The notes beneath the pieces are model-generated. The model had not been told where the DNA came from, did no database searches, and saw nothing but the letters and a program-made list of their open reading frames with translations. From positions 3,374,501 through 3,438,500 of the forward strand of contig JAVTVX010000013.1 in assembly GCA_033439265.1 (NCBI GenBank): DNA of 64,000 nt, in the 5' to 3' direction. Positions 4,641 to 58,602 of this stretch are shown here, in pieces. Numbering within the stretch: the first letter of the stretch is position 1; every line of letters begins with the position of its first letter. The DNA comes from Dillenia suffruticosa. Its lineage: Eukaryota > Streptophyta > Magnoliopsida > Dilleniales > Dilleniaceae. The position numbers were made by a program, and so were the translations under genes.

Positions 4641-4870
4641 CTATATATAAAACCGATGATCAGAATCAGCTTGTGTGCACAGTGACAAAAAGCTTGCACT
4701 CTGGATGGAGTGTCTCCTGAACAACGGAATGGAACCCACCAAAAGCGGCGGAAGAAAGACATCCGGCGTCTGCAGATGCCGAAATTCCGGCGTCTGTTCG
4801 ACCACCGGAACCGCTGTGGAGCGGAAAATGAAGGAAGTTTTGGGGGGATCAGGAGCTGGCAATAATATAG

Positions 4871-5660
4871 GGACTAATGGAGGAGTCGGGGTGGATTTAT
4901 CAGGTGGAAGGAAGAATGAATTCGGGTGATGGCGAAAGAGGTGGTAGACTAGAGGTGATGAGGGGGTGTGAATTCATCCCGGATGGTGGTGGCGAAGGAA
5001 AGGATGGTGGGGACTAATGGAGGAGCCGGGGTGGATTTATCAGGTAGAAGGAAGAATGAATTCGCGTGATGGCGATAGAGGTGGTAGACTAGATGTGATG
5101 AGGGGGTGCGAATTCATCCCCGATGGTGGGGGTGAAGGAAAGGATGGTGGGACTAATGGAGGAGCCGGGGTGGATTTATCAGGTGGAAGGAAGAATGAAT
5201 TCGGGTGATGGCGGCAGGGTTGGTAGACTAGAGGTGATGAGGGGGTGTGAATTCGTCCCCGATGGTGGTAGCGATGGGAGGATGTCCGGGAATGAGGTTG
5301 GAGAGAGAAAAGGAAAGGATGGTGGCGACTAATGGAGGAGTCGGGGTGGATTTATCAGGTGGAAGGAAGAATGAATTCGGGTGATGGCGGCAGAGGGGGT
5401 AGACTAGAGGTGATGAGGGGTGTGAATTCATCTCCGATGGTGGCGGCGACGAGAGGATGACCGGGAATGAGGGTGGAGAGAGAAGGAAAGGATGGTGGGG
5501 ACTAACGGAGGAGCCGAGGTGGATTTATTAGGTGGAAGGAAGAATAAATTCGGGTGATGGGCGGCAGAGGTGGTAGAGTAGAAGTGAGGAGGGGTGTGAA
5601 TTCATCCCCGACGGTGGTGGCGATGGGAGGATGTCCGGGAAGGAAAGGATGGGGGGGGTT
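4871..5660. repeat. GC-rich minisatellite, about five tandem units of 139-176 bp
   Basis: Units start at GGACTAATGG or a close variant at 4871, 5011, 5150, 5326 and 5499, giving spacings of 140, 139, 176 and 173 bp. Each unit contains GGGGTGGATTTAT, GGTGGAAGGAAGAATGAATT, GGTGGTAGACTAGA and GGTGATGAGGGGGTG. The longer units gain a block with GGGAGGATGTCCGGGAATGA and AGAGAGA. The array is purine-rich on the plus strand and proline-coding on the minus. An 84-codon plus-strand frame (4675-4929) runs into the first unit. A TATATATAAA lies just before it at about 4643-4652. I cannot show that this frame is a gene. Confidence 0.85.
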
Positions 5661-10918: not shown

Positions 10919-12023
10919 ATCCTCAGCAATAGTTAAAGTCTAGAGAAAACCTAAAGACTTTAAAAATGGGAAAAGATAATGGATTAATTATATTCCTGAA
11001 ACAAAATCAATTAAAAATAAATTTATTTAGAAACATTAGAAAAGGATCAACAAAAATATTGACTGAGTTCATTTTTTTTTTAATTAATTTTTTAAGTCAT
11101 AATTCATAAAGAACATTTCGAGAATTGATTGAAATGTGAAAAAACCCTAAGAGAACTATGTGGTAATTGCTTAGTAGAAAACAAGAAGGAAACTAGCATG
11201 CTAACTACATCTCTCACTTGATTAATTCATTCCAATTTAAAATATCCAACTGGACCGCATAAACCAAATTTGATGAACATAAAATGACATTAAACTACCA
11301 TATGAAAATACTAAAGAAAATTAGAAGAAAACAAACCCAATGAAAATATTTGTTCAAAATTACCAGAAATTCAAATAGGAAAAACTAGATTAGGATGGAA
11401 AGCCCAAAGCATCCAAAATTTAGGGGGCCAGGGAAAGAAGTGAAAAAGGGTTCTTCATCTAAACGAAAAACAAAGGGTTTCTTCACAGTTTCCTTGAACA
11501 AAATCCTCATAGAGACAAATATTCCCAAAGAGAGAGGGTGGGGAGAGAGAGAGAGAGAGAGAGAGAAAGAGTTATACCTGAAAAGGGGTAGATTTTGAAC
11601 CTAGGAAGTGGAAAGTACTTGAACTAAGGAGATTCTTTAAGCTTGGAGAAAGTGAATATGGCGCAACCTACCGATTTCTCTTTTGGGGAAATGCCATTTT
11701 AAGGTCTAAACTCGGGCCCCGGGGGGGGGGGTGTCCCACCCAAAAGGAAATCCGTCGTGGGGCCCCAAAGAAAATATAATAAAATAATTGTAAAAATATC
11801 TGGAGACAGGAGCCCTTTTGGCTAAGTCCAAATTGGGAGGTCAAAACCACTTCTGCACGCGTCCACGTGTTAAGGAAGCCTCAGTCCCTCCGAGAGCCAC
11901 AAATTTTATATTTTTTATATTTTTCGTTTGCTAAATCTGTCCGGCTCAAGCTACTCAGCAGCGGTCCCAGATAAAGGGAGTGGCACAGGGGGGAGAGAGA
12001 GAGAGAGAGAGAGGGAGAGCGCC
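10917..12023. other. Intergenic with (GA)n tracts
   Basis: No gene is supported. GA tracts lie at about 11530-11563 and 11993-12013, and a run of ten or more G lies near 11719. The second GA tract directly precedes the transposon at 12033. Confidence 0.5.
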
Positions 12024-12032
12024 CACCGTTTG

Positions 12033-12834
12033 GAGAGATGTACGCATCTGACGCCAAAAATAATTTTTTTTTAAAAATAACCCTTAAATAAAAAAAATTT
12101 CAAAATTAACCCACGTTTATCGTGGGTGGAAGACGCGACAGGCTATGTCGCGACAGGTTATGTCGCGTCTTGAACCCGCGACATGGGTTCCTCCGCCTTC
12201 CGCGGCGTTCCTCCGCCCACGACTCTCTCACTCCCTCCCGCGTGCGGCTCTCTCTCTCCCTCCTCCAGCCGCTACTCTCTCTCTATCTCCTCCCCGCCGC
12301 TGCCGGCCGTCCTCTCTCCCTCCCTCCCCCAGCCGCGGCGCTCTCCCTCCCTCCTCCGCCCGCGACGGTCCTCCCTCCCCCCGCGATCGTCTTCCCTCTC
12401 TCCCCCCCCGCCCGCGGCAGTCTTCCCTCTCTCCCCCCGTGGCTCTCTCTCTTTCTATCTCCTCCCCCGTCGCCCGCGGTGGTCCTCTCTACCTCCCTCC
12501 CCCGCCACCCGCGGCAGTCCTCCCTCCCCCCGCGGCTGTCCCTCTCTCCCCTGCGCAGCTCCCGCGGCACTCCTTCCCGGATCCTGCAACAGTCCTCCCT
12601 CCCTCTCTCCCCCTCCGCGGCGGAGTGCAGCGAGAGCGAGAGGAGCGCCGATGTCGCGTCTTGGAGACGCGACACACCTCTGCTGCCGACACATCACAAC
12701 GTCGTGGGTGTAAGACGCGACATAGCCCGTCACGTCTTCCACCCACGACAAACGTGGGTTAGTTTTAGAATTTTTTTGATTCAAGGTTTGTTTTAAATTT
12801 TTTTTTTTTTTTTGGTCAGATGCGTACATTCCTC
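12033..12834. mobile_element. Non-autonomous inverted-repeat DNA transposon, GC-rich core (Mutator-like), copy 1
   Basis: This is an 802-bp element with terminal inverted repeats of about 130 bp. The outer ends are GAGAGATGTACGCATCTGAC (left) and GAGGAATGTACGCATCTGAC (right, reverse complement). Further in, both arms share TAACCCACGTTT.TCGTGGG, TGGAAGACG and GGCTATGTCGCG. It is flanked by a perfect 9-bp target duplication, CACCGTTTG, at 12024-12032 and 12835-12843. A 9-bp duplication is typical of the Mutator superfamily, but no transposase is present. The core (about 12190-12620) is C/T-rich with many CCGCGG-like words, and carries the sub-terminal palindrome GTCGCGTCTTGGAGACGCGA. The long open frames through it are low-complexity artefacts. 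Confidence 0.85.
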
Positions 12835-13139
12835 CACCGTTTGCGTTAGTTTTCAATGGAACGAAAACTAGGAAATTGAAGGACAAAAAACCAATGGGAG
12901 CTTTACGATTAATAATAATAGTTTTAATTGAAAGAATGAATTATATTAAATATAAGTGTATTTAATTATAAAATAGTTCAAATATAACATAGTTTAAACA
13001 ATAATGACTCTAAGGTGGGTAGAATGGGTTTAATAATAAAAAGATTATTTTATTTTTGACATTTTAATATATTTTCAACAAGGGGTCAAGCTTTTTAACT
13101 TATTGTGTCAGGTTGAGTTGCACTTTTAATAATAGATTA

Positions 13140-22861: not shown

Positions 22862-23050
22862 CTTTCTTTTTTTTTTTTGGTTTTCAACATCGATATACGG
22901 GATTTATCCAATTAATCTGGTTTGAGCACTGCGAGACCTATTTTAGGGGTTAGTTCTCCTAAATTTTTTTTCTCTATTCTTAATACTCGAATTCGAGATC
23001 TCTGATTAAGGGGTAGAATGTCCGATCACTCAACCTAAAAGAGTTTGGTG
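22862..23050 (-). mobile_element. tRNA-derived SINE (family SINE-1), copy C
   Basis: The minus-strand copy opens CACCAAACTCTTTTAGGTTG and has its T-run at the left. It has box-A-like AGGTTGAGTGATCGGACATT and box-B-like CGAATTCGAG. TGCATTTCTTT (22851-22861) and TGCAATTCTTT (23051-23061) are an 11-bp target duplication with one mismatch. It lies about 260 bp beyond the RRM stop codon. Confidence 0.82.
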
Positions 23051-23567: not shown

Positions 23568-23903
23568 GTTTAGCATTATGTATATGTATATGCTTCTTTC
23601 AAAATCAAATAAAATGTTATTCAAATAAAATGGTTTTTTAGGTGGATCAATTGAGGTAAGCATAAAAATTGGTACAACATTCCTGTCATTTTACCTCGAT
23701 TGGTCAATTTAAGGTTCATCGCCTATCTGAATTACCTCATCCTTCAAAATCAATCTATATTGATGAGTGGAAGAGAATTTGGAAATTTTTCTTTGGAAGA
23801 TAAATTCTTGATAATTGGAAAGCAATATTAATCACATATTGGGTATCGGTGATGGAGATGACAATTTTAGTATACAATATAGCTAGTGCGCTCTCTCTCT
23901 CTC

Positions 23904-24096
23904 GAGACATGTTCCAAAATATCCCAATAAAAAAAAAAAATTTTTAAAAAAACCACCAGTCTAAAAATATTTCGTTAAATAACCCCAATTTGTCGCGTCT
24001 TGAAGACGCGGCACAGTGTGTCGCGTCTCGAAGGCGCGACAATCCAATTTCGAGAGAGGGAGAGAGTGTGTCGCGTCTTGAAGACGCGACAACCCC

Positions 24097-24128
<32 letters not shown>

Positions 24129-24976
24129 AGGGAGAGGAGTCCGCGGGGGGGGAGGGAGAGAGGGAGAGAGGGGAGGGAGAGCGGCGGGGGAGGGAGGAGC
24201 GCTGCGGGGGGGGCGGCGGGGGGGAAGGAGAGAGAGGGGAGGACCGCGGCGGGGTTGCGGGAGGGGGGGAGGGGAGGGAGGGAGGGAGAGGAGGAGAGAG
24301 GAGGGGGAGAGGGGCCGCGGAGGGGGGGGGAGGGAGAGAGAGAGGGAGGGCCGCGTGGGGCGGGAGGGGGGAGGAGAGAGACAGCGGAGGGGGGGGGAGG
24401 GAGAGAGAGAGGGGGGCGGTGAGGGGGGAGGAGAGAGACAGTGGAGGGGGGGGAGGGAGAGAGAGAGGGGAGGGGCCCGGCGGGGGGCGGAGGGCCGCGG
24501 GGGGGGCGCCCCCTCCCCCCCCCCCGCGGCCCCTCCCTCTCTCTCTCCCTCCCCCCCTCCGCTGGTGTCTCTCTCCTCCCCCTTCCCTCCCGCCCCCCGC
24601 CCCCCCCGCCCCCCGCGGCCGCCCTTCCCCCGCGGCCCCCTCCGCCCTCCCCGCCGGCCCTCCCCCGCGGCCCTCCCCCCCACCCCGCGGCCCTCACTCT
24701 CTCTCTCCCCTCCCCCCTCCGCTGTCTCTCTCCTCCCCCCTCCGCCCCCCTCGCGGCCCTCCCTCTCTCTCTCCCACTCCCCCACCTCCGCGGCCCCTCT
24801 CCCCTCTCTCTCTCTCCCTCCCTCCCCCCCTCCGCACCCCCGCAGCGGTCCTCTCCCTCTCTCTCCTTCCCCCCGCCGCGCTCCTCCCTCCCCCGCCACT
24901 CTCACTCCCCCTCTCCTCCCTCCCCCCCCCCCCCCGCGGACTCCTCTCCCTCCTTCCCTCCCTCCCTCCCTCCCCC

Positions 24977-25019
<43 letters not shown>

Positions 25020-25174
25020 TCTCTCTCTACCTTGGGTTGTCGCGTCTTGGAGACGCGACACACTGTGTCGCGTCTTCAAGACGCGACAAATTGGGGTTAT
25101 TTGGGGAAATTATTTTGGGTTAGGGTTATTTTAAAATTTTTTTTTTTATTTTGGGTTATTTTGGAATATGGCTC
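23904..25174. mobile_element. Foldback DNA transposon, 1.27 kb near-perfect inverted repeat (Mutator-like), copy 2
   Basis: Almost the whole element is one inverted repeat. The ends are GAGACATGTTCCAAAATA and GAGCCATATTCCAAAATA (reverse complement). Both arms then run through an AT-rich zone, AATAACCCCAATTTGTCGCG, repeated palindromes of GTCGCGTCTT and AAGACGCGAC, a GA tract, GGGAGAGGAGTCCGCGGGGG and GGCGGGGGAGGGAGGAGCGC. The left arm is G/A-rich and the right arm C/T-rich, meeting near 24515. CTCTCTCTC borders both ends (23895-23903, 25175-25183), which fits a 9-bp duplication but is ambiguous in a microsatellite. It shares the GAG start, 9-bp duplication, palindromes and GC-rich core with the element at 12033. 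There is no transposase. The 240-377 codon open frames on both strands are artefacts of composition. Confidence 0.87.
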
Positions 25175-26570
25175 CTCTCTCTCTCTCTCTCTCTACCCTA
25201 AATGTAAAACAATAGTACACCAAGTTACCTTTCAAAGGCCAAAGACAGTCTCATGTGCCAAAAAGGAAGTACCATAACTGTTAGTTGTTGATATTTTAAG
25301 ATCAAATCATTATTTGATCATCACAATAAGCGTTTTTAATATATATATATATATTGAGAGAGAGAGAGAGAGATTGGCCTTTTTCGTTGTCATAGGAAAA
25401 GAAGTACCAAGGGAGCAAAAACAGGGCACCTTACCAACATTTATTAGCTCAATGATTATTATACAACCGAGCTTCTTTGATATGTGTAATTAGACACTTC
25501 TTTCTCCATAATAAAAAATCTCGAGTTTTGAAAAGGGAGAAAAAGGATTTGGAAAAATCAAATTATTAATGGACCCTATAATATTCAGATCAAATCAATC
25601 GGATGAAACTTAAATATCGGTTGATCCAGAAAAAAAAGAAAGTATTATACAAGAAGAATTAAAAAAAAAGGAACGTCATGCTATTGGCCCCAATGGTATA
25701 TATAGGGGTTAGAAATGACGCATCTTTGGCTTGATTATTATATTGCATAATTAAAATTGTGCAATATCAAAGCGACAGCAGAAATAGAAACCAAGCCCCT
25801 AGTTAATCTCTGGTTTTGATTCTGTGAGGTTTTTTTTTTCAATAATAATAGTTTAGTTATTATTATTATTTTTTGGTATGTATCACTATAAATTCCTTAA
25901 ATTTGTGTTCACACATTTGAACAAATTCTACTCGTAAGTTTAAAATGTTCTCTATATTATTATTGTAAGGTTTTATATTTTTAATAATTTTTTATTTTAG
26001 TTAAAAGATAGTACAAATAGAATAAAATAAAATAAAATAAAAAATAAATTGTCACGGGAAGTGTTTCGAAAACTGATTTGCGTACTCTATACTTTTAGCC
26101 AATCAATTTGAACATGCGCACTCTTTTTTCTTTTGTGTCTCGATATTTAGAGTTTTCTGTCGACTAATCTGAATTAATCGTTGTACTTGCTCTTTTTGAA
26201 GGGCGAGTCTCTCAATAAGAAACGTTTCGTACATATGAGATCCCAATACTCTTAACTCGAATCTTTCATCCCAGCACAAAGATCTATCTCCAAGCACAAG
26301 AAATAAATAATAATAATAATAATAATGAAAAACATCCACGCCATAAGATATATGTTGGTTCATAGAAATCAAAGCCGTCATTATCTGTACACATAAGGGC
26401 AAATCCGACTTTATAGAGATGGCAAAAAATTCTAGAAGACGCCAAAAACCACATCATCCAATCTTTCTGGTTTTTCACATACCATATGAAATAAAGGAGG
26501 ACAACAAAACAGAGACACACTTTTCTTTTATGCTTTTTTTGCCCTTCAATGATAAAGAGACAAAGTAAAT
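25175..26570. other. Intergenic, no gene seen
   Basis: AT-rich with (CT)n, (AT)n/(GA)n near 25338-25372 and several A-runs. It lies between the foldback element and the 3' end of the minus-strand HHO gene, and no coding exon is supported. Confidence 0.5.
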
Positions 26571-33010: not shown

Positions 33011-36000
33011 CTACATGTAAAGTATTAATGAAGAGTTTATTTAGTAGGAGGGAGTTATTAAGTTATTATAATTAAGTTTTGAATTTAAAACTTAAAAATA
33101 AAAAAAAAATTATATTGAAAGAGTTGTTTTTTAAATAGAAATTTTGTAAATATTTAAACTAAATTAAATAAAATATAATTTTAAAAATCAATAAAAAAAG
33201 AAAAAAAAAAAAAAGCATGCAAAGCTGGTGACTACGTGCTGGGGAGGCCCAACCCAGTCGGTAACAGGCAGTCAATGTGGAATCAGGAGAGAGAGAGAGA
33301 GAATCTGGAGAAAAGGTGGAGGTTGGAAGCTTGTACGAGAAGAGTGAATATGGAATTGGAAAGCAACCAACCATCATTATGGCACTCTTCTCTCTGCCAA
33401 GGGAATTCGATGCATGTTCCCTTTTTCCCCTTTTCATTTTCCCATGGAAAAAAGAAAAACACACACCCAAAAAAAAGGGCTTCTCTCTCTCTTCCATTTT
33501 ATTGCTTCCTTCTTGCTTTTCTTTCTCCATGAATAAAAATGAAGAGATTCTCCTCGTGACACGTTTCATGATATTCCCCAAATCTGTGCTTTTGAATATC
33601 CCTTCTGTCTGGTGTAAAAATCGGAGAATATTCTTTCCCACCAATCTGGTTTTTGGACCGAGACAAAAGAAAAAAACAATTATTTTATTTTTGTGAAAAC
33701 CCGAAACCGAGGTGTAGTGTTTGCATTTGCACTCCCCATTCTACCTATAGGAAATTTCGAGTAAATTTTTATTCCTCAATATATGTGGAGTATACTAATA
33801 TGAGCCGTGGATTCCTAGTGCTAACATGCGCATCCCCCTTTCCTCACTTTTGACCAGACCAACATAAAACTAACACCACATTTTAATCCGGGCATGGGTC
33901 AAATTCCTCATCCCAACAGTACTCGATTCGTATTTTCTGGAATAAATTGATTATATTTTTTCATTGAATAAATTTAATAAAAATTTGATTATTTTGATCT
34001 AAAATAATTTTATAATGCTTATTAATCTTTGCAAAATAAGCCCAAACATTCCCCGGATCCAAGGAAACTCAATTAATTATTTTTTTTTTTGTTATAACAA
34101 AATTTGAACCTTAGATTCTGAGATTGATTAAGGAGGGAGTCTATATCCATTAAATCGTCCCTTGAGACAAACTCAACTAATTATGCTATAGCCAAAACTG
34201 TGACCACCTCCACGGTTGGTGAGAGCCGCATCCTTGTGGCCACCGGCTAACTGCAGATTGCATATTTTATTTTAATTTTTTGACTCTTTTTTTGTTTAAT
34301 ACAGTACCAACCAATGAACATCTAAATTCTTTCGCCTTTCATGGCCATTAGTGGCTATGGAGGATAAGATTTTTCTAATTATATCGATAGACTTCTCATG
34401 ATTTATGAACATCCAACGTTTTCTATTTAGCAACTATCATTTTGCTCTCTCTCTCTCTCTCTTTCAAATTTTGTCGATGATGAAGAATGGTATACTATGC
34501 AAATGCACTCAAATAACCAAATTGTTTTTCTCATTTAAATGGGTGAATTTAAACATATGTTTGTCTCAGATCTATGATTAATGGAATATATTTTAAGAAC
34601 CAGGGGTTAACTTTTTCTTTCTTTTTCCTTTTTTCTATTTCTCATTTCGCGTAAAGCTTGGTTTTCGGTTCTCGATGGGGGTGTGATGGGCTAAAAACTT
34701 TTCCCTGTTAAGCAACTTTGGTGCTTTTGGAGCCCAACTTCACGTGTGTTTCTTTAAAATTGGATCTTGGACCTGTCTGTTTTTCCTTTTTTTTTTTTTT
34801 TTTCATTATTAATATCTAAAATTATATTTCAATTAATTTAATTTGAGTGTCTTTAAGATTCTATTTATAAATGATTCTTCCAATATAATATTTTTTATCA
34901 TTTTTAAGTTTCGAGTCAAAAACTTAATTAAAAAATCTAATATTTCATCGTACTAAACTCTAAATCGATTATTCATTAATCTCTCTCCATCCATTCTCTC
35001 TTTTCTGGGACCAAAATATTCCGTTGCTGTTTGATGTTATTGCAATTCAAAAAAGGCTAAACTTAGGAGAGGATGTGTTTGAAATGATTTCATTGTTTAG
35101 TCTTGTCCTCCAAGTTGAGATGAGTGCAAAGTTAAAGAGTATTTCTCCTTAATTTCCTCAATCTAAATGAGTACAATACGGTAAAATTTGAGAATGGTAT
35201 ATGCACACAAGTGTATATATATACATATACAAAACTATCTAAAGTTTCATGATAAATTCTAACACATGCTTCCTTCTGTTTTTGTCATTCTAAAAACTTG
35301 ATGGATCTAAGTCTATGATATACGGTTTCTGCAAATGGCCTGTTAACTCTACTAAAATCATGTCTTATGAGTTTATGATAAAAGATTTAGTTGGCAATCG
35401 AGATTCTTCACTTTTTTGTGTATATTTATCTAATTTCAGTAGATAATATACTAGAAATTATAACTAATGTCTAGCTTCAAATGATTAAAATGGAGAGAAA
35501 AGATTATGTTTCTTCTAAAAAATATAAAAGAAGAGCATTCATGGAGCTACATTAGTAGCTAGAACCTAAGAACCATACCTATACGTTTTCTAAAATAAAA
35601 TTCATAAAAGTGAAGTGCATAGCTCTACCCTACAAGGTGACAAGTCTGCGTATGCACCCAATTAAAATAAATACCATCCAATGTGACAAAATAATGGAGG
35701 GCATATGAGCACACCAAGAAAGGGTTTGGATACCTGGAATAATCAATAAAGTTTCAAACAAAGGATAAAGAAATGCATACGAGATTCTATTCTTCTTTAT
35801 CTCTAATCCTATTACCCAAGTATACCTCCCAACATTATCAAATAGATTGAAACTCTCAAATTCCATATTCTAATCAACAAAAACACAAATTCAAAGGGAA
35901 GAAAGATTTTGCCTTTATCTTGCATTATGAGGAAATATTCTTGTAAGCTTTGCGGAAAGCGCGATGATGGGTACATTTACGGGCTGTAAGGTTTTCTTTT

Positions 36001-37360: not shown

Positions 37361-37544
37361 ACCAAACTCTTTTAGGTTAAATAGTTGAATACTCTATCCT
37401 TTAATCAAAAATATTGAGTTTGAGTGTTGAGAATGACGAAAAAAGATTTAAAAGAGTCAATCCCTAAAATAGATCTCACAATACTCGAACCGGATTAATT
37501 GCTCAAAAACCTGGATACCGATGATGAAAACAAAAAAAAAAAAA
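37361..37544 (+). mobile_element. tRNA-derived SINE (family SINE-1), copy E
   Basis: A plus-strand copy from ACCAAACTCTTTTAGG to GGATACCGATGATGAAAAC plus A-run. Flanks GGTTCTTTTTCACCCT (37345-37360) and GATTTCTTTCGCCCT (37545-37559) are a degenerate target duplication. They match the unoccupied GGTTCTCTTTCGCCCT in the second duplicate. It entered nearly the same target as the mini-SINE beside it. Confidence 0.8.
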
Positions 37545-37930
37545 GATTTCTTTCGCCCTCGGAACTAAAGTGCTATTTAGCCTTTTTAAAAAAAAAAACC
37601 AAAGTATTCCTTAGTTTGAGTCTAATTAAACTTTTAACAGACAAAACTTTTTCACGTTTATTTTCATTATACACAAAATTTTAATTTGAGATTTTATTTA
37701 AGAGATATCAGTATTCAGTAACCAAATGAACATGACATAGCAACTTGTTCTATGTTAATATCATAATACATGCATGTCACTGATGGTGGATAAAAAAAAA
37801 ATGTGCCTTTCGGCCCCGCTGAGTAAAGCCCGAAAATGAAGTGAACGAAATGCTCGAATCTATGGTCATAAGTCATCAGTGGTCGAAGGTTCTCTTTCGC
37901 CCTTGGAACTTTGGATCCAAAGCGATGTTT

Positions 37931-46825: not shown

Positions 46826-47384
46826 CAAAATTTTAATACTTCAACTAAACTTCAGTGGTTCAAATTCCATTCATGGCACACAAGTAGAAATTGAAGGGTG
46901 ATAATATCTTTTATTTAATACTTCATTCTCTTTGAATTAAGAAGACAACCAATGTATTTTAAGTTTTTATAATGTAAGAAAAAAATCAGTTATTCTTAAT
47001 AAATTTATATATGTAAGACATATTATTCATTATAATAATAATTTGATATTTATTTTCAATGTAAAATAAAGAAGAGAGAGAAAAATAATAAAATAAAATC
47101 GCATATATATATATTTTTTAAAAAAATAAAGTCCAATTAGGATAGGTAGGACTGGACTTTTTTTTTTTTTTTTTAAACCCATCCATAATTGTTCCTCTCA
47201 CCTCCACGTACGTAATATTCCTCCTTCGTATATTGGGTGGGCAATCCAAAAAAGAAAAGAAAAAATAATGAAAATACCAACGGCAACCACACACATAAAT
47301 TCTTTGCTCTTTCCTCATGTTTCACCCTCTCACTTCACTCCGCCCGGTCTCCGTTCTCTCTCACTCTCTCTCTCTATCTCTTCA

Positions 47385-48696
47385 ATGGCGTCGTCAGAAA
47401 TAGCAGAGAACAACACCATCTTCCGAAACATAGAAGCAGACCATGACCAACAAAAGGAGCTACAAACAACAGTGTATGCTATGGAGCTAATAACCATATC
47501 TGCTCTCCCAATGGTATTATTAACTGCCATAGACTTAGAAATTTTCGAGATTATCTCGAAAGTTGGAGAAGGAGCGAAACTCGCAGCGACGGAGATTGCC
47601 GCGGAGATTCCACATCGGAATCCACAAGCTCCGGCCATGCTTGACCGCATGCTCTGCCACCTCGCCGCATTTAACATAGTCACGTGCACAGTTGATCCCG
47701 GCAACATCGACCGGAGACTGTACGGACTTGCTCCCGTCGCAAAATACTTTGTCAAGAATGAAGTCGGAGTTTCTCTGGGACCTCTCTTAGGTCTTCTTCA
47801 GGACAAGGTTTTCATTGATAGCTGGTACGCTTTTGGAAATTAATTTTAATTGTGATGATGTCATATACCTCAATTTACTAAATTAAGCATCTTTGTCTTT
47901 ATTTTTTTTATTTTTTTTTATAAATTAAGTGAAGTTTCGTTTCTTCCGTGTGGGCATCTTACTAAAAAATTTTGGATAATTAATTTGTATGATTTGTTTT
48001 GAATCAACCATATTTCCCTACAGGTACAAACTAAAAGACGCCATTATGGATGGCGGTGTTGCGTTCGACAAAGTCCACGGTATGCACGCATTTGAATACC
48101 CTGGATTCGATGAGCGGTTTAATCAAGTTTTCAACAAAGCAATGATGAATCACACCACAATCGTCATGAAGAAGATTTTAGAATCTTACAATGGTTTTGA
48201 AGAGCTTAATAAAGTCGTGGATGTTGGTGGCGGTTTAGGCATAACACTTAAATTGATCACTTCGAAATACCCAAACATCAAGGGCATTAATTTTGACTTG
48301 CCTCACGTGATCCGAGAAGCTCCCACATATCCTCACGTGGAACATGTTGGTGGGGACATGTTCGAGAAGGTTCCAGAGGGCGACGCAATATTTATGAAGT
48401 GGATATTGCATGACTGGAGCGATGATCATTGTGTGAAGTTGTTGAAGAATTGTTACAATGCTTTGCCTGAGAAAGGGAAAGTGATTGCTGTGGAAATGGT
48501 TTTGCCTGCTCGTTTAGAGAATAGTTTTGGTGTGAGAGGGATATGTGGTGTGGATATGGTGATGATGACTCAAATTTCGGGAGGGAGAGAGAGAAGGCAA
48601 CATGAGTACCTTGCCTTGGCAACAACTGCTGGTTTTAAGGGCATTTCTTTTATTTCTTGTATTTGTAACTTTTGGGTCATGGAATTCTTCAAGTGA
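47385..48696 (+). CDS. COMT-like O-methyltransferase, gene 1
   Basis: Two exons, 47385-47824 and 48024-48696, with a 199-bp GT-AG intron splitting a Trp codon; 370 residues. It is a class I plant SAM-dependent O-methyltransferase close to caffeic acid 3-O-methyltransferase. The N-terminal dimerisation half has SALPMVLLTAIDL, MLDRML and RLYGLAPVAKYF. The SAM-binding motif is VVDVGGGLG, followed by GINFDLPHV and VEHVGGDMF. The catalytic His lies in WILHDWSDDHC. Compared with alfalfa COMT as I remember it, MNQDK is LLQDK in both copies, losing the pocket Met/Asn pair. Only here does N-P-G-G read I-S-G-G, and NEDGVS reads NEVGVS. The substrate is therefore unlikely to be the standard lignin precursor. 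A CT-rich leader precedes the ATG. Typical COMT genes have more introns. Confidence 0.9.
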
Positions 48697-48888
48697 TTTT
48701 GTTGTACTTTTATGAATTGGTATAGCGTATAATGCACCATACAATAAAAGCTTATGTCTATGACCACCGGCTATTATATAGGAAGTGGTATTCTTCAATA
48801 GGCTCATTAATGGCTAGGTTAATTTGGGTTGTTTGTATGTTTTCTCTTTTCTAAAGCAATCCGTTTGGGTAATCTAGTTTTGTTCAAA

Positions 48889-52455: not shown

Positions 52456-52634
52456 ATTTTTTTTTTTTTCACCGCGGATATATGAGTTTTATCCGACTAA
52501 TCAAATTCGAGTACCATGGGACCCATTTTTAGGGGTTAACTCTCCCAAATCCTTTTTTATCATTCCGAGACTCAAACTCGAAACCTCTAATTAAGGAGAT
52601 AGAGAGCCCGATCACTCAACTCAAAAAAGTTTGG
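52456..52634 (-). mobile_element. tRNA-derived SINE (family SINE-1), copy G
   Basis: A 179-bp minus-strand copy (minus strand starts ACCAAACTTTTTTGAGTTGA). TTTCATCCTATGTCA (52441-52455) and TTCCATCCTATGTCA (52635-52649) form a 15-bp target duplication with one mismatch. Confidence 0.83.
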
Positions 52635-52675
52635 TTCCATCCTATGTCATTGAAATGCTTGAACTTCCGTATGCG

Positions 52676-54314: not shown

Positions 54315-55200
54315 GAGGGGATGGTCTCGCTCCGCCCCATGCGCTCACAAGATCTGCATCAATAGTCAGGTCGAGAAAAGCAAGAGTCCATCGGCCTATA
54401 AATTCTTAGGGTAAAAAATAAGATTTATTTTAGTATTTATTATTAATATTTAAAATTATATTTTAATTAATTTGATTTAAAAAATTTTTAAATAAGAGAA
54501 TTGGCTTGCTCCACCCCATGTGCTCACAAGATCTGCATCAATATTGTACCCAAAAAGAAGATATGCATCAATAGTCTTGTCGAGACAAGGAAGAGTCGAT
54601 CATTCCATCACGTAACTTCTTAACGAGAAAAAAAAAAAGTTTTAATATTTATTATTGATATTTAAAATTATATTTTAATTAATTCGATTTAAAAATTTAT
54701 AAAATTAGGGATAGCCTCGCTTCACCCCATGTGTTCACAAGATCTATACCAATATTGTATCCAAAAAGAAGATCTGCATCAATAGTTATATTGAGACAAG
54801 CAAGTGTCCATCCTTCCGGTTCGTAAATTATTAGTGACATAAAATAAGTTTTATTTTAGTATTATTATTAATATTTAAAATTATATTTTAATTAATTTAA
54901 TTTAAATATTTATAAAATAAGGGGATGGCCTCGTTCAAAATTTGTATCAATGTATTAAACTTTTTTAGATTGAGTAGTCAAGAATATTCTACTTCATTAA
55001 TCAAAAATCTCGAGTTTAAATTTTAGAAATGACGATAAAGAATTTTAAAGAATTAATCTATAAAATGAGACTCACAGTTCTTAAACACAAATGATGAAAA
55101 TCAATAAAAAATAAAGAACAGGAAAATTTAAATCAGCATCAATGTTGTACCCAAAAAGAAGATCTGCATCAATAGTCATGTCGAGACAAGCAAGAGTTTA
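54315..55200. repeat. Tandem array of about 190-215 bp units upstream of COMT-like gene 2
   Basis: Units carry GCTC(A/C)CCCCATG.GCTCAC, AAGATCTGCATCAATA, GTACCCAAAAAGAAGAT and CAAG(C/G)AAGAGTC, then an AT-rich part with ATATTTAAAATTATATTTTA. Starts are near 54320, 54507, 54710 and 54922. The last unit is split by a plus-strand SINE-1-like copy at about 54960-55110. Duplicate 1 has one unit only, so the array grew after the duplication. Confidence 0.8.
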
Positions 55201-56028
55201 TGTCACGAGTACAACATGTCACGAGTCGAAATTGAAAGGTGATAATGTCTTTTATTTAATTCTTCGTTCTCTTTAAATTAAGAAAATAACCAATATATTT
55301 TGAGTTTTTATGCGGTAAGAAAAAGATTAATCATTCTTGATAAGTTTATATATATAATCAGTGAGTGATATAGTTCAACAGTTATCATTCCCTTTTTTAT
55401 ATGTTTCGATTTTAATTTTCTCTTATATATCAAATAAATATATATAGCATATTATTCGTTGTCTTTAAATTTTTGTTCTGTATTCTTTATACTTTTTTCC
55501 CAGCACTTGCTTCCCTAAATGAGAATTCTGACTTCCTCAAAGATCATGGCATGCATTTCATGAATAATATGTCTAACTCTATCTTTTTGAATATTAAGTT
55601 GGTAATTTAATTTAATCCTAAATTTAGCGTGCAGGTTTTTATTATAACAAATAACAATTTTAAAATTCTCTTTTTTATTTTATTTGAAGGAAACAATGAA
55701 GGAGTAAATTCTTTAATCCAAATATATGCAAAATTTAAATCAGTCCGACTCTCTTTCACTCCCAAAAAAAAAAAACAATAATAATAATCAAATTAATTAG
55801 TTACCTATGATATTTAAGCAAGTAATTATTCAACCCAACCATATTTGTCTCCACGGCGTCCGCAAATGCTCTCCCGTCCCGTCCAAAAAGAAATGAAAAA
55901 TAAACAGAGAAAGAAAATGACCCTATTATTAATATATTCTGGTAAGGTAATCTGAAAATATCAACCACACACATTAGTTCTTTATTCTTTCCCCAGGTTT
56001 CTCTCCCTCACTTCCTCACCCCGCACTA

Positions 56029-56065
<37 letters not shown>

Positions 56066-56087
56066 CCACTTCCTCTCCCTCTCTTCA

Positions 56088-57402
56088 ATGGCGTCGTCAG
56101 AAACAGCAGAGAACAACGCCATCGTCCAAAACATAGAAGAAGAAGACCAACAAAAGGAGCTACAGACAACAGCGTATGCTATTGAGCTAATAAACACATC
56201 TGCTCTCCCAATGGTATTATTAACGGCCATAGACTTAGAAATTTTCGAGATTATCTCAAAAGTCGGAGAAGGAGCGAAACTCACCGCCACAGAGATTGCG
56301 GCGGAGATTCCACATCGGAATCCACAAGCTCCGGCCATGCTTGACCGCATGCTCTGCCACCTCGCCGCCTTTAACATAATCACGTGCACAGTTGATCCCG
56401 ACAACATCGACCGGAGACTGTACGGACTTGCTCCCGTCGCAAAATATTTTGTCAAGAATGAAGACGGAGTTTCTCTGGGACCTCTCTTAGGTCTTCTTCA
56501 GGACAAGGTTTTCATTGATAGCTGGTACGCTTTTGGAAATTAATTTTAATTGTGATGACGTCATATACCTCAATTTACTAAATTAAGCATCTTTGTCTTT
56601 ATTTTTTTTTTCATTTTTATTTTTTATAAATTAAGTGAAGTTTCATCTCTTCCGTGTGAGCATCTTACTAAAAAATTTTGGATAATTAATTTGTATGATT
56701 TGTTTTGAATCAACCATATTTCCCTACAGGTACAAGCTAAAAGACGCCGTTATGGATGGCGGTGTTGCGTTCGACAAAGTCCACGGTATGCACGCATTTG
56801 AATACCCCGGATTCGATGAGCGGTTTAATCAAGTTTTCAACAAAGCAATGATCAATCACACCACAATCGTCATGAAGAAGATTTTAGAATCTTACAATGG
56901 TTTTGAAGGGCTTAATAAAGTCGTGGATGTTGGTGGCGGTTTAGGCATAACACTTAAATTGATCACTTCGAAATACCCAAACATCAAGGGCATTAATTTT
57001 GACTTGCCTCACGTGATCCGAGAAGCTCCCACGTATCCTCGCGTGGAACATGTTGGTGGGGACATGTTCGAGAAGGTTCCGGAGGGCGACGCAATATTTA
57101 TGAAGTGGATATTGCATGACTGGAGCGATGATCATTGTGTGAAGTTGTTGAAGAATTGTTACCACGCTTTGCCTGAGAAAGGGAAAGTGATTGCTGTGGA
57201 AATGGTTTTGCCTGTTCGTTTAGAGAATAGTGTTGGAGTGAGAGGAATATGCGGTATGGATATGGTGATGATAACTCAAAATCCGGGAGGGAGAGAGAGA
57301 AGGCAACATGAGTACCTTGCCTTGGCAACAACTGCTGGTTTTGAGGGCATTGATTTTATTTCTTGTGTTTGTAACTTTTGGGTCCTGGAATTCTTCAAGT
57401 GA
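56088..57402 (+). CDS. COMT-like O-methyltransferase, gene 2
   Basis: Two exons, 56088-56524 and 56730-57402, with a 205-bp GT-AG intron at the same Trp codon as gene 1; 369 residues. Identity to gene 1 is about 92% by eye. It has the same SAM motif (VVDVGGGLG) and the same catalytic His in WILHDWSDDHC. At positions where the two differ it often keeps the usual COMT residues: NEDGVS, and QNPGG, whose Asn matches the pocket Asn near position 324 of alfalfa COMT. It is thus the more conservative copy and the better guess for the ancestral activity, probably methylation of a phenolic hydroxyl using SAM in the cytosol. The LLQDK change is shared with gene 1. The leader is a long CT run (56034-56064). 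Confidence 0.9.
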
Positions 57403-58602
57403 TTTTATTGTATCGTTTGGCATAGTGTACTCTAAAGTATATTTAAGTGTTAAAAAATTATTATTCGGCTTTTTTAAGATTTTTTATTTAAAATGTTATG
57501 AACGTATATTTTTTCATAATTATCGTGATCTTTTACGTAACAAAAAAAGATGGTGTATACCAACGGTCATTATATAGGAAGTGGTATTCTTGTTCTTCTT
57601 GTGTAATATTTTCCTTTCGCCTCTAGTGTCCCCTTCAATAAAAATTAGTTATGATAAAAAGAAAAGCTAGAGGTCATTAATGGCAAGCTTATCTTGGGTT
57701 GTTGGCGTTTTCTTTCTCTTTTCTATGCAATTCATTTGGGTAATCTAGTTTTGTTAAAAATAGAATTGTTACACCTCATTTGCCCAGAGTAATACATGTC
57801 CATTTCTTTTTAGTATAATGTTATCGGTCCTCCAAAATATCATAGCTTTTCTTGGCATCAGCCTATGGGCGAAGGCCATTTTTCAATGTAAGCTCCACCA
57901 ATAGCCTTTACTGCCACTTCTATCATGCATTTTTTTTTAACAAATGGCTCTCAAATATGGATAATTATATTCGAATATGACCATTCAAAAATTTTGCAAG
58001 CAAATGGAAATTGAGGAAAGGGGAAAACAAGTGTATCCGGGCTTTTTTAACTCTATCTCCTCATTTTTTAAAAATAAATTATCGACATCTAGATTCGAAT
58101 CAAATTAAATTTTTTAAAAATAAAATTTTTTTAATATAAAATTCAAACTAAAAAGGCCAATTAGAAATTACTATATCTACCATCCACACATACCATTGCT
58201 GCTGCTCGTCCACGGTGGTGGCAATTTTGTCTTCTAATCCTCTTAGATAGAGAAAATTTACACACATATACATTTGATGATTAATTGACCCAATTAAAAA
58301 AATAAGCTTAAATTTAATTTTTAATTAAAAATATTAATATAATAATAATTTAAATATTTTGTATTCGGCACTCACTCACGCAATCATTGATGTCAAGCCA
58401 CCGGCAAATGAAAATGAAATTAAAACCAAATGCAATGACGGACCACTTGCGTTAGTTCCCTTTATCGGCCCCCTTCCTACCAAGTATTTGCAAGTCACAT
58501 CTCTCTTTTTGTTTTTTTTTTGGTACAGAGTCACATCTTTCTCTCTCTCTCTCTCGCTATCTTTTTTCTTTTTCCCCTTTTGCTCCTTTTCTCTCGATCT
58601 CT

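Follow-up and report, generated by a model that had tools for sequence, protein, structure and literature searches.

A foldback element with a strand-biased core, likely a non-autonomous Mutator-like transposon, and its relative in an apparent plant genome

A long inverted repeat in which a purine-rich arm faces a pyrimidine-rich arm raises two questions, namely what kind of element it is and how such arms came to lie opposite each other. The element considered here, E1, is part of a 64-kb stretch of DNA that was analysed as a whole and is referred to as the window. E1 is likely a DNA transposon, non-autonomous and of Mutator-like/foldback type, in an apparent plant genome. Most likely it represents an unusual family of a known transposon kind, set apart by a core with strand bias and by palindromic half-site modules. 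The window looks like plant DNA on account of two gene families, represented by a pentatricopeptide gene that carries an E motif and by an O-methyltransferase domain. The features of E1 and of a second element of the window, E2, are collected in Table 1.

Table 1. Positions of E1, E2, and their parts and flanks in the window.
Feature	Position	Strand	Description
E2 left target site duplication	12024..12032	+	9 bp, CACCGTTTG
E2	12033..12834	.	802 bp; E1-like subterminal arm, pyrimidine-rich interior
E2 right target site duplication	12835..12843	+	9 bp, CACCGTTTG
E1 left flank	23891..23903	.	(CT)n microsatellite, 13 nt; candidate target site
E1 foldback element	23904..25174	.	1271 bp; inverted halves, predicted full-length fold
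E1 left terminal tip	23904..23927	+	21/24 identical to right tip
E1 left subterminal arm	23928..24096	+	A/T-rich stretch, then three palindromic GTCGCGTCTT-type modules
E1 left-arm palindromic modules	23992, 24020, 24070		GTCGCGTCTT-type
E1 purine (G/A) inner arm	24097..24508	+	bears CCGCGG words
E1 pyrimidine (C/T) inner arm	24509..25030	+	inverted copy of purine arm
E1 right subterminal arm	25031..25150	-	two palindromic modules, at 25039 and 25067
E1 right terminal tip	25151..25174	-	partner of left 24-bp tip
E1 right flank	25175..25194	.	(CT)n microsatellite, 20 nt

E1 is inverted along its whole length and is built in layers, which from the outside are a 24-bp tip, an A/T-rich stretch, the palindromic modules, and the purine/pyrimidine core. 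Alignment bore out the original prediction of an inverted repeat between the ends at 23904 and 25174, with arms spanning the interval. The same prediction called the foldback near-perfect, a description that does not hold, as the two halves show 498 identities, 100 mismatches, and 75 gap positions in a global alignment. In the outer arms (23904-24064 against 25015-25174), 136 of 160 aligned bases are identical and there is 1 gap; in the inner arms, 333 of 369 are identical and 52 positions are gaps. This amounts to 24 substitutions per 160 outer bases and 36 in the core. About 100 nt of the pyrimidine inner arm, adjoining the centre, have no alignment to the purine arm. The palindromic block was not significantly more conserved than the rest of the E1 arm (54/61 against 71/87 identical, p = 0.36). 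A purine left side and a pyrimidine right side were found in the core, where the purine fraction of the + strand is 0.83-0.95 at 24084-24503 and 0.08-0.18 at 24504-25043 (60-base windows), but not in the outermost three such windows on either side (0.42-0.60). Likewise, the word GGGAGAGGAGTCCGCGGGGG, previously cited as an example from the left edge, is present at 24130-24149 with its complement at 24931-24950, but these positions belong to the outer G/A core.

Chance complementarity of G/A and C/T arms was considered and ruled out. The inverted match of the inner arms scores 397, against a mean of 226 (sd 13.6) and a maximum of 260 in 200 shuffles that preserved the dinucleotides of each E1 arm separately, and the reversed-sequence control scores 207. 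Folding led to the same rejection. As RNA, E1 is predicted to form a hairpin over its full length at -1087 kcal/mol with 532 pairs, 503 of which span the centre, whereas 12 arm-wise dinucleotide shuffles average -667 (sd 12.7, best -685). This agrees with the earlier expectation of a hairpin in single-stranded or RNA form. The core consists of low-complexity, tandem-like units, in which many 24-base windows have a second-best match nearly equal to the best, and the pairing register within it is only partly unique. E1 fits the foldback type in that its arms make up most of the element, repeats lie inside it, and a full hairpin is predicted. G-quadruplex-type motifs, counted as non-overlapping regular-expression matches, number 6 on the + strand and 9 on the - strand of E1, compared with 5 and 1, respectively, elsewhere in the window (excluding 12001-13000 and 23901-25200). 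Double-stranded RNA, small RNAs, and quadruplexes could arise from E1 as structural possibilities.

Assignment to the Mutator-like elements had been based on a 9-bp duplication at E1. The supposed duplication is CTCTCTCTC, which itself lies within the (CT)n flanks, where a duplication of this kind can be neither demonstrated nor measured. It carries no weight because any duplication of 13 bases or fewer looks alike in (CT)n. The assignment is supported instead through E2, because E2 has a clean 9-bp duplication, a terminal repeat matching at 18 of 20 positions, and a subterminal arm in common with E1. A duplication of 8-11 bp (usually 9) is characteristic of Mutator-like elements; it is present at E2 as CACCGTTTG, bounding the terminal inverted repeat, whereas at E1 the CT flanks would hide one. 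Long terminal inverted repeats, another hallmark, are present in both elements, with 94 of 114 aligned bases identical in the outer arms of E2. E2 was noticed by eye before a scan of the 64-kb window for duplications with inverted ends was designed. The scan called for a complex 9-bp duplication flanking a 20-bp inverted end with at least 16 matches, 200-5000 bases apart, and E2 was the sole match, while none of 20 shuffled windows gave any. Low-complexity duplications were left out, so E1 could not be picked up. With provisional ends, the alignment of the two E2 halves comprises 220 identities, 160 mismatches, and 54 gap positions, which places E2 outside the foldback type. The purine fraction of its + strand is 0.15-0.32 in 60-base windows at 12213-12632, and this pyrimidine-rich interior has no matching purine arm. 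The predicted fold of E2 is -309 against a shuffle mean of -200, and 0 of 20 shuffles were as good.

The subterminal arms of E1 and E2 align with scores of 41, 80, 56, and 72, against shuffle maxima of 30, 29, 26, and 30 (n = 200 each). The best pair has 123 identities, 36 mismatches, and 14 gaps, and blastn without the low-complexity filter gives 69% over 168 columns with an E value of 2e-11. In contrast, E1 and E2 are unlike each other over their first ~19 bp. E2 therefore appears to be a relative of E1 and not a second copy, with the subterminal arm in common but not the terminal tip. Because of this difference in the first ~19 bp, the two would at best be separate subfamilies. Transitions at CpG sites amount to 0 of 11 in the E1 outer arms, 2 of 17 in the E1 inner arms, 2 of 8 in the E2 outer arms, and 8 of 15 between E1 and E2, counts too low for any dating of these arms by CpG decay.

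The palindromic modules have the form GTCGCGTCTT-N-AAGACGCGAC, with three in the left half of E1 and two in the right. At up to 3 mismatches, 14 strand-wise matches at 7 sites were found in the 64-kb window, all in E1 or E2, where 0 were expected. E2 also has mixed modules, with GTCGTGGGTG as one of the two half-sites, and these point to possible exchange of the 10-base half-sites as units. A looser pattern for the 10-base half-site gave 17 matches, 16 in E1 or E2 and 1 outside them at 11754. The module motif had 0 exact matches in prokaryote genomes. Among viral contigs, it was found in one G/C-rich contig, which was judged to be a chance match from ~1.1 kb of its sequence. Of 20 papers listed as containing GTCGCGTCTT or AAGACGCGAC, none concerned plant transposons, by title. 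Analogy with other elements makes the paired half-sites candidates for transposase binding. As far as the available parts of the sources go, the long inverted ends of Mutator elements contain transposase binding sites and promoters (PMC3310237), and the foldback-like Galileo is stated to have extra transposase sites in its arm repeats (PMC4079207). The half-sites common to E1 and E2 provide testable candidates for this role.

The interior of E2 also resembles the pyrimidine arm of E1. On the same strand, the two align with a score of 151 (69% over 339 columns), against a shuffle mean of 104 (sd 11, n = 200) and 107 for the reversed control, although 151 is only modestly above the best shuffle of 138. 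Homology of the interiors is probable rather than proven, and the likeness is partly compositional because both are low-complexity and C/T-rich. The simplest history that we infer is an E2-like ancestor with an inverted duplication of its strand-biased interior. An autonomous Mutator-like element elsewhere would supply the transposase that binds the E1 ends, and this transposase would probably also bind the palindromic half-sites, GTCGCGTCTT paired with AAGACGCGAC. A 9-bp staggered cut would then insert the element, in the case of E1 into a (CT)n microsatellite. The E1 foldback would result if an E2-like pyrimidine-rich tandem-repeat interior was duplicated as an inverted copy, for instance through template switching in gap repair. 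The purine arm would lie opposite the pyrimidine arm because the source interior was strand-biased. E1 and E2, in one window, are a candidate before-and-after pair for the origin of foldback transposons.

The microsatellite setting of E1 may also reflect its target site. GA/CT runs of at least 8 outside E1 and E2 comprise 798 bases, with the E1 flanks counted, or ~1.3% of that sequence, and a single random insertion into such a run is uncommon but not remarkable. Slippage is a possible source of the right CT run because the E1 tips start with GAG and finish with CTC, and the run could have been made from the E1 tip in this manner. The left run, which is CT and not GA, misfits slippage from the left tip. 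Mutator-like elements of the SaTar/MuTAnT type have most of their copies in microsatellites. Of the only two elements compared here, one (E1) lies in (CT)n, whereas the E2 duplication begins 10 bases past a (GA)n run at 11993-12013, outside that run.

E1 is likely non-autonomous because the three long open frames in E1 and E2 (377, 372, and 224 aa) match no Pfam family at E 0.001; they are taken as low-complexity products. A Mutator-type family domain was absent from the 18 frames scanned, 3 of them within E1 or E2, in a window with 126 frames of at least 80 residues.

Several other explanations bear on the same evidence. E1 could be an inverted duplication unrelated to transposition, in which a GA/CT-rich minisatellite was inverted by a replication or repair error and the likeness of its flanks arose by chance. 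The low-complexity, tandem-like core fits this account, as do the microsatellite flanks, between which no duplication is demonstrable. However, the outer arms are mostly not GA/CT repeats and are inverted copies nonetheless, and they recur in E2 with its clean 9-bp duplication, which makes an origin from a minisatellite distinctly unlikely. The palindrome could also be an artefact of assembly or haplotype collapse. Long G/C-rich palindromes are difficult to sequence and assemble. Yet a fold-back read would not leave 24 substitutions between outer arms of 160 bases nor, in the core, 36 substitutions plus 52 gap positions, and inverted outer arms occur independently in E2. Given these substitutions and indels between them, the arms are unlikely to be an artefact, a statement that covers the arms and not the centre; for the palindrome altogether, an artefact is considered highly improbable.

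The predicted hairpin suggests roles that are compatible with the transposon reading. E1 may act as a silencing trigger similar to Mu killer: its transcript would fold into long double-stranded RNA, which would be diced and would silence relatives with the arms in common. In the maize Mu killer, inverted Mutator-derived sequence is likewise able to form a long hairpin, and an inverted duplication with a hairpin RNA of ~4 kb is proposed in the available part of PMC3440606. Mu killer differs in its origin from a transposase gene and in that silencing was shown (PMC3440606), whereas the E1 hairpin is a predicted fold. The 532 predicted pairs over the full length agree with such a role, and small RNAs from the outer arm could match relatives since this arm is common to E1 and E2. 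On the other hand, the arms are imperfect (136/160 in the outer part and 333/369 plus 52 gap positions in the inner part), and the E1 and E2 arms are only ~69% alike, which limits the match to relatives; a trigger of this type is rather unlikely. Transcription of the hairpin would make E1 a natural candidate for a trigger of transposon silencing. It is still less to be expected that E1 regulates its own transposon family as a natural hairpin. In that case, an inverted duplication would have made an E2-like element into a source of double-stranded RNA along its full length, the arm common to both would silence relatives, and the paired GTCGCGTCTT half-sites would titrate transposase as an array. 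The grounds for this are the predicted fold and the arm common to E2, with nothing beyond them.

As a Mutator-like transposon, E1 can be compared with several known systems, within the portions of the cited sources that were available. Insertion of small non-autonomous Mutator-like elements into microsatellites is already well described (SaTar, PMC5907723; MuTAnT, PMC4486113; PMC8449440). SaTar elements of guayule and rice are small, non-autonomous, and Mutator-like with imperfect inverted ends, as in E1, and are located in microsatellites or between 10-bp duplications, in families of 380-1120 bp (PMC5907723, Table 2). They differ in that the microsatellites are mostly (TA)n, with others too, and their description in that portion of PMC5907723 includes no purine/pyrimidine arms or palindromic half-site modules. 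MuTAnT elements of Medicago are also Mutator-like and lie in dinucleotide microsatellites, and the founding one is a foldback that forms a strong hairpin; however, their targets are (TA)n and 90% of them are 200-300 bp (PMC4486113). Ac-mMITEs of pineapple are Mutator-related and flanked by dinucleotide microsatellites or 9/10-bp duplications, similar to E1 and E2. Some have GA or CT flanks, and their tips have GA at the start and TC at the end, as E1 does, although (TA)n predominates and GA or TC occurs on both sides in only 0.20% and 0.10%, respectively (PMC8449440). These GA/TC flanks were attributed to slippage from the GA/TC tips after insertion (PMC8449440). A literature query on GA/CT repeats, microsatellites, and Mutator-like MITEs gave no match, though PMC8449440 reports GA/CT flanks.

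Among foldback elements, Tm1 of nematodes (Mutator/foldback) has composite inverted ends of tandem repeats, usually 9-bp duplications, and a 12-bp purine-rich motif in its arm, a likeness to E1. Its units are 13-15 bp of other sequence, the host is an animal, and a Phantom-type transposase is known (PMC3169594). Tm1 and a citrus paper were the two matches to a literature query on purine and foldback Mutator ends. Tetris, a Drosophila foldback, is similar in its tandem repeats within inverted arms, 8-10 bp duplications, and lack of conserved open frames, and differs in its ~220-bp units and animal host (PMC4079207).

Other repeats were observed in the window. A direct duplication (47284-48706 and 55962-57412) has 92.8% identity over 1454 columns, and a domain scan of the copy at 55962-57412 alone placed the O-methyltransferase domain there. 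What looks like a short transposon family is dispersed at six sites (1674-1858, 1900-2082, 22865-23049, 37361-37546, 52457-52635, and 54957-55076), pairs of which align over ~100-200 columns in both orientations with 71-78% identity. Tandem arrays occur at 4870-5644, with ~140-bp units and a + strand strongly biased to G over C, and at 54349-54937, with 2.8 copies of ~211-bp units. An inverted pair at 33040-33213 and 34787-34957, 1.6 kb apart with 77% identity over ~175 columns, is possibly another inverted-repeat element.
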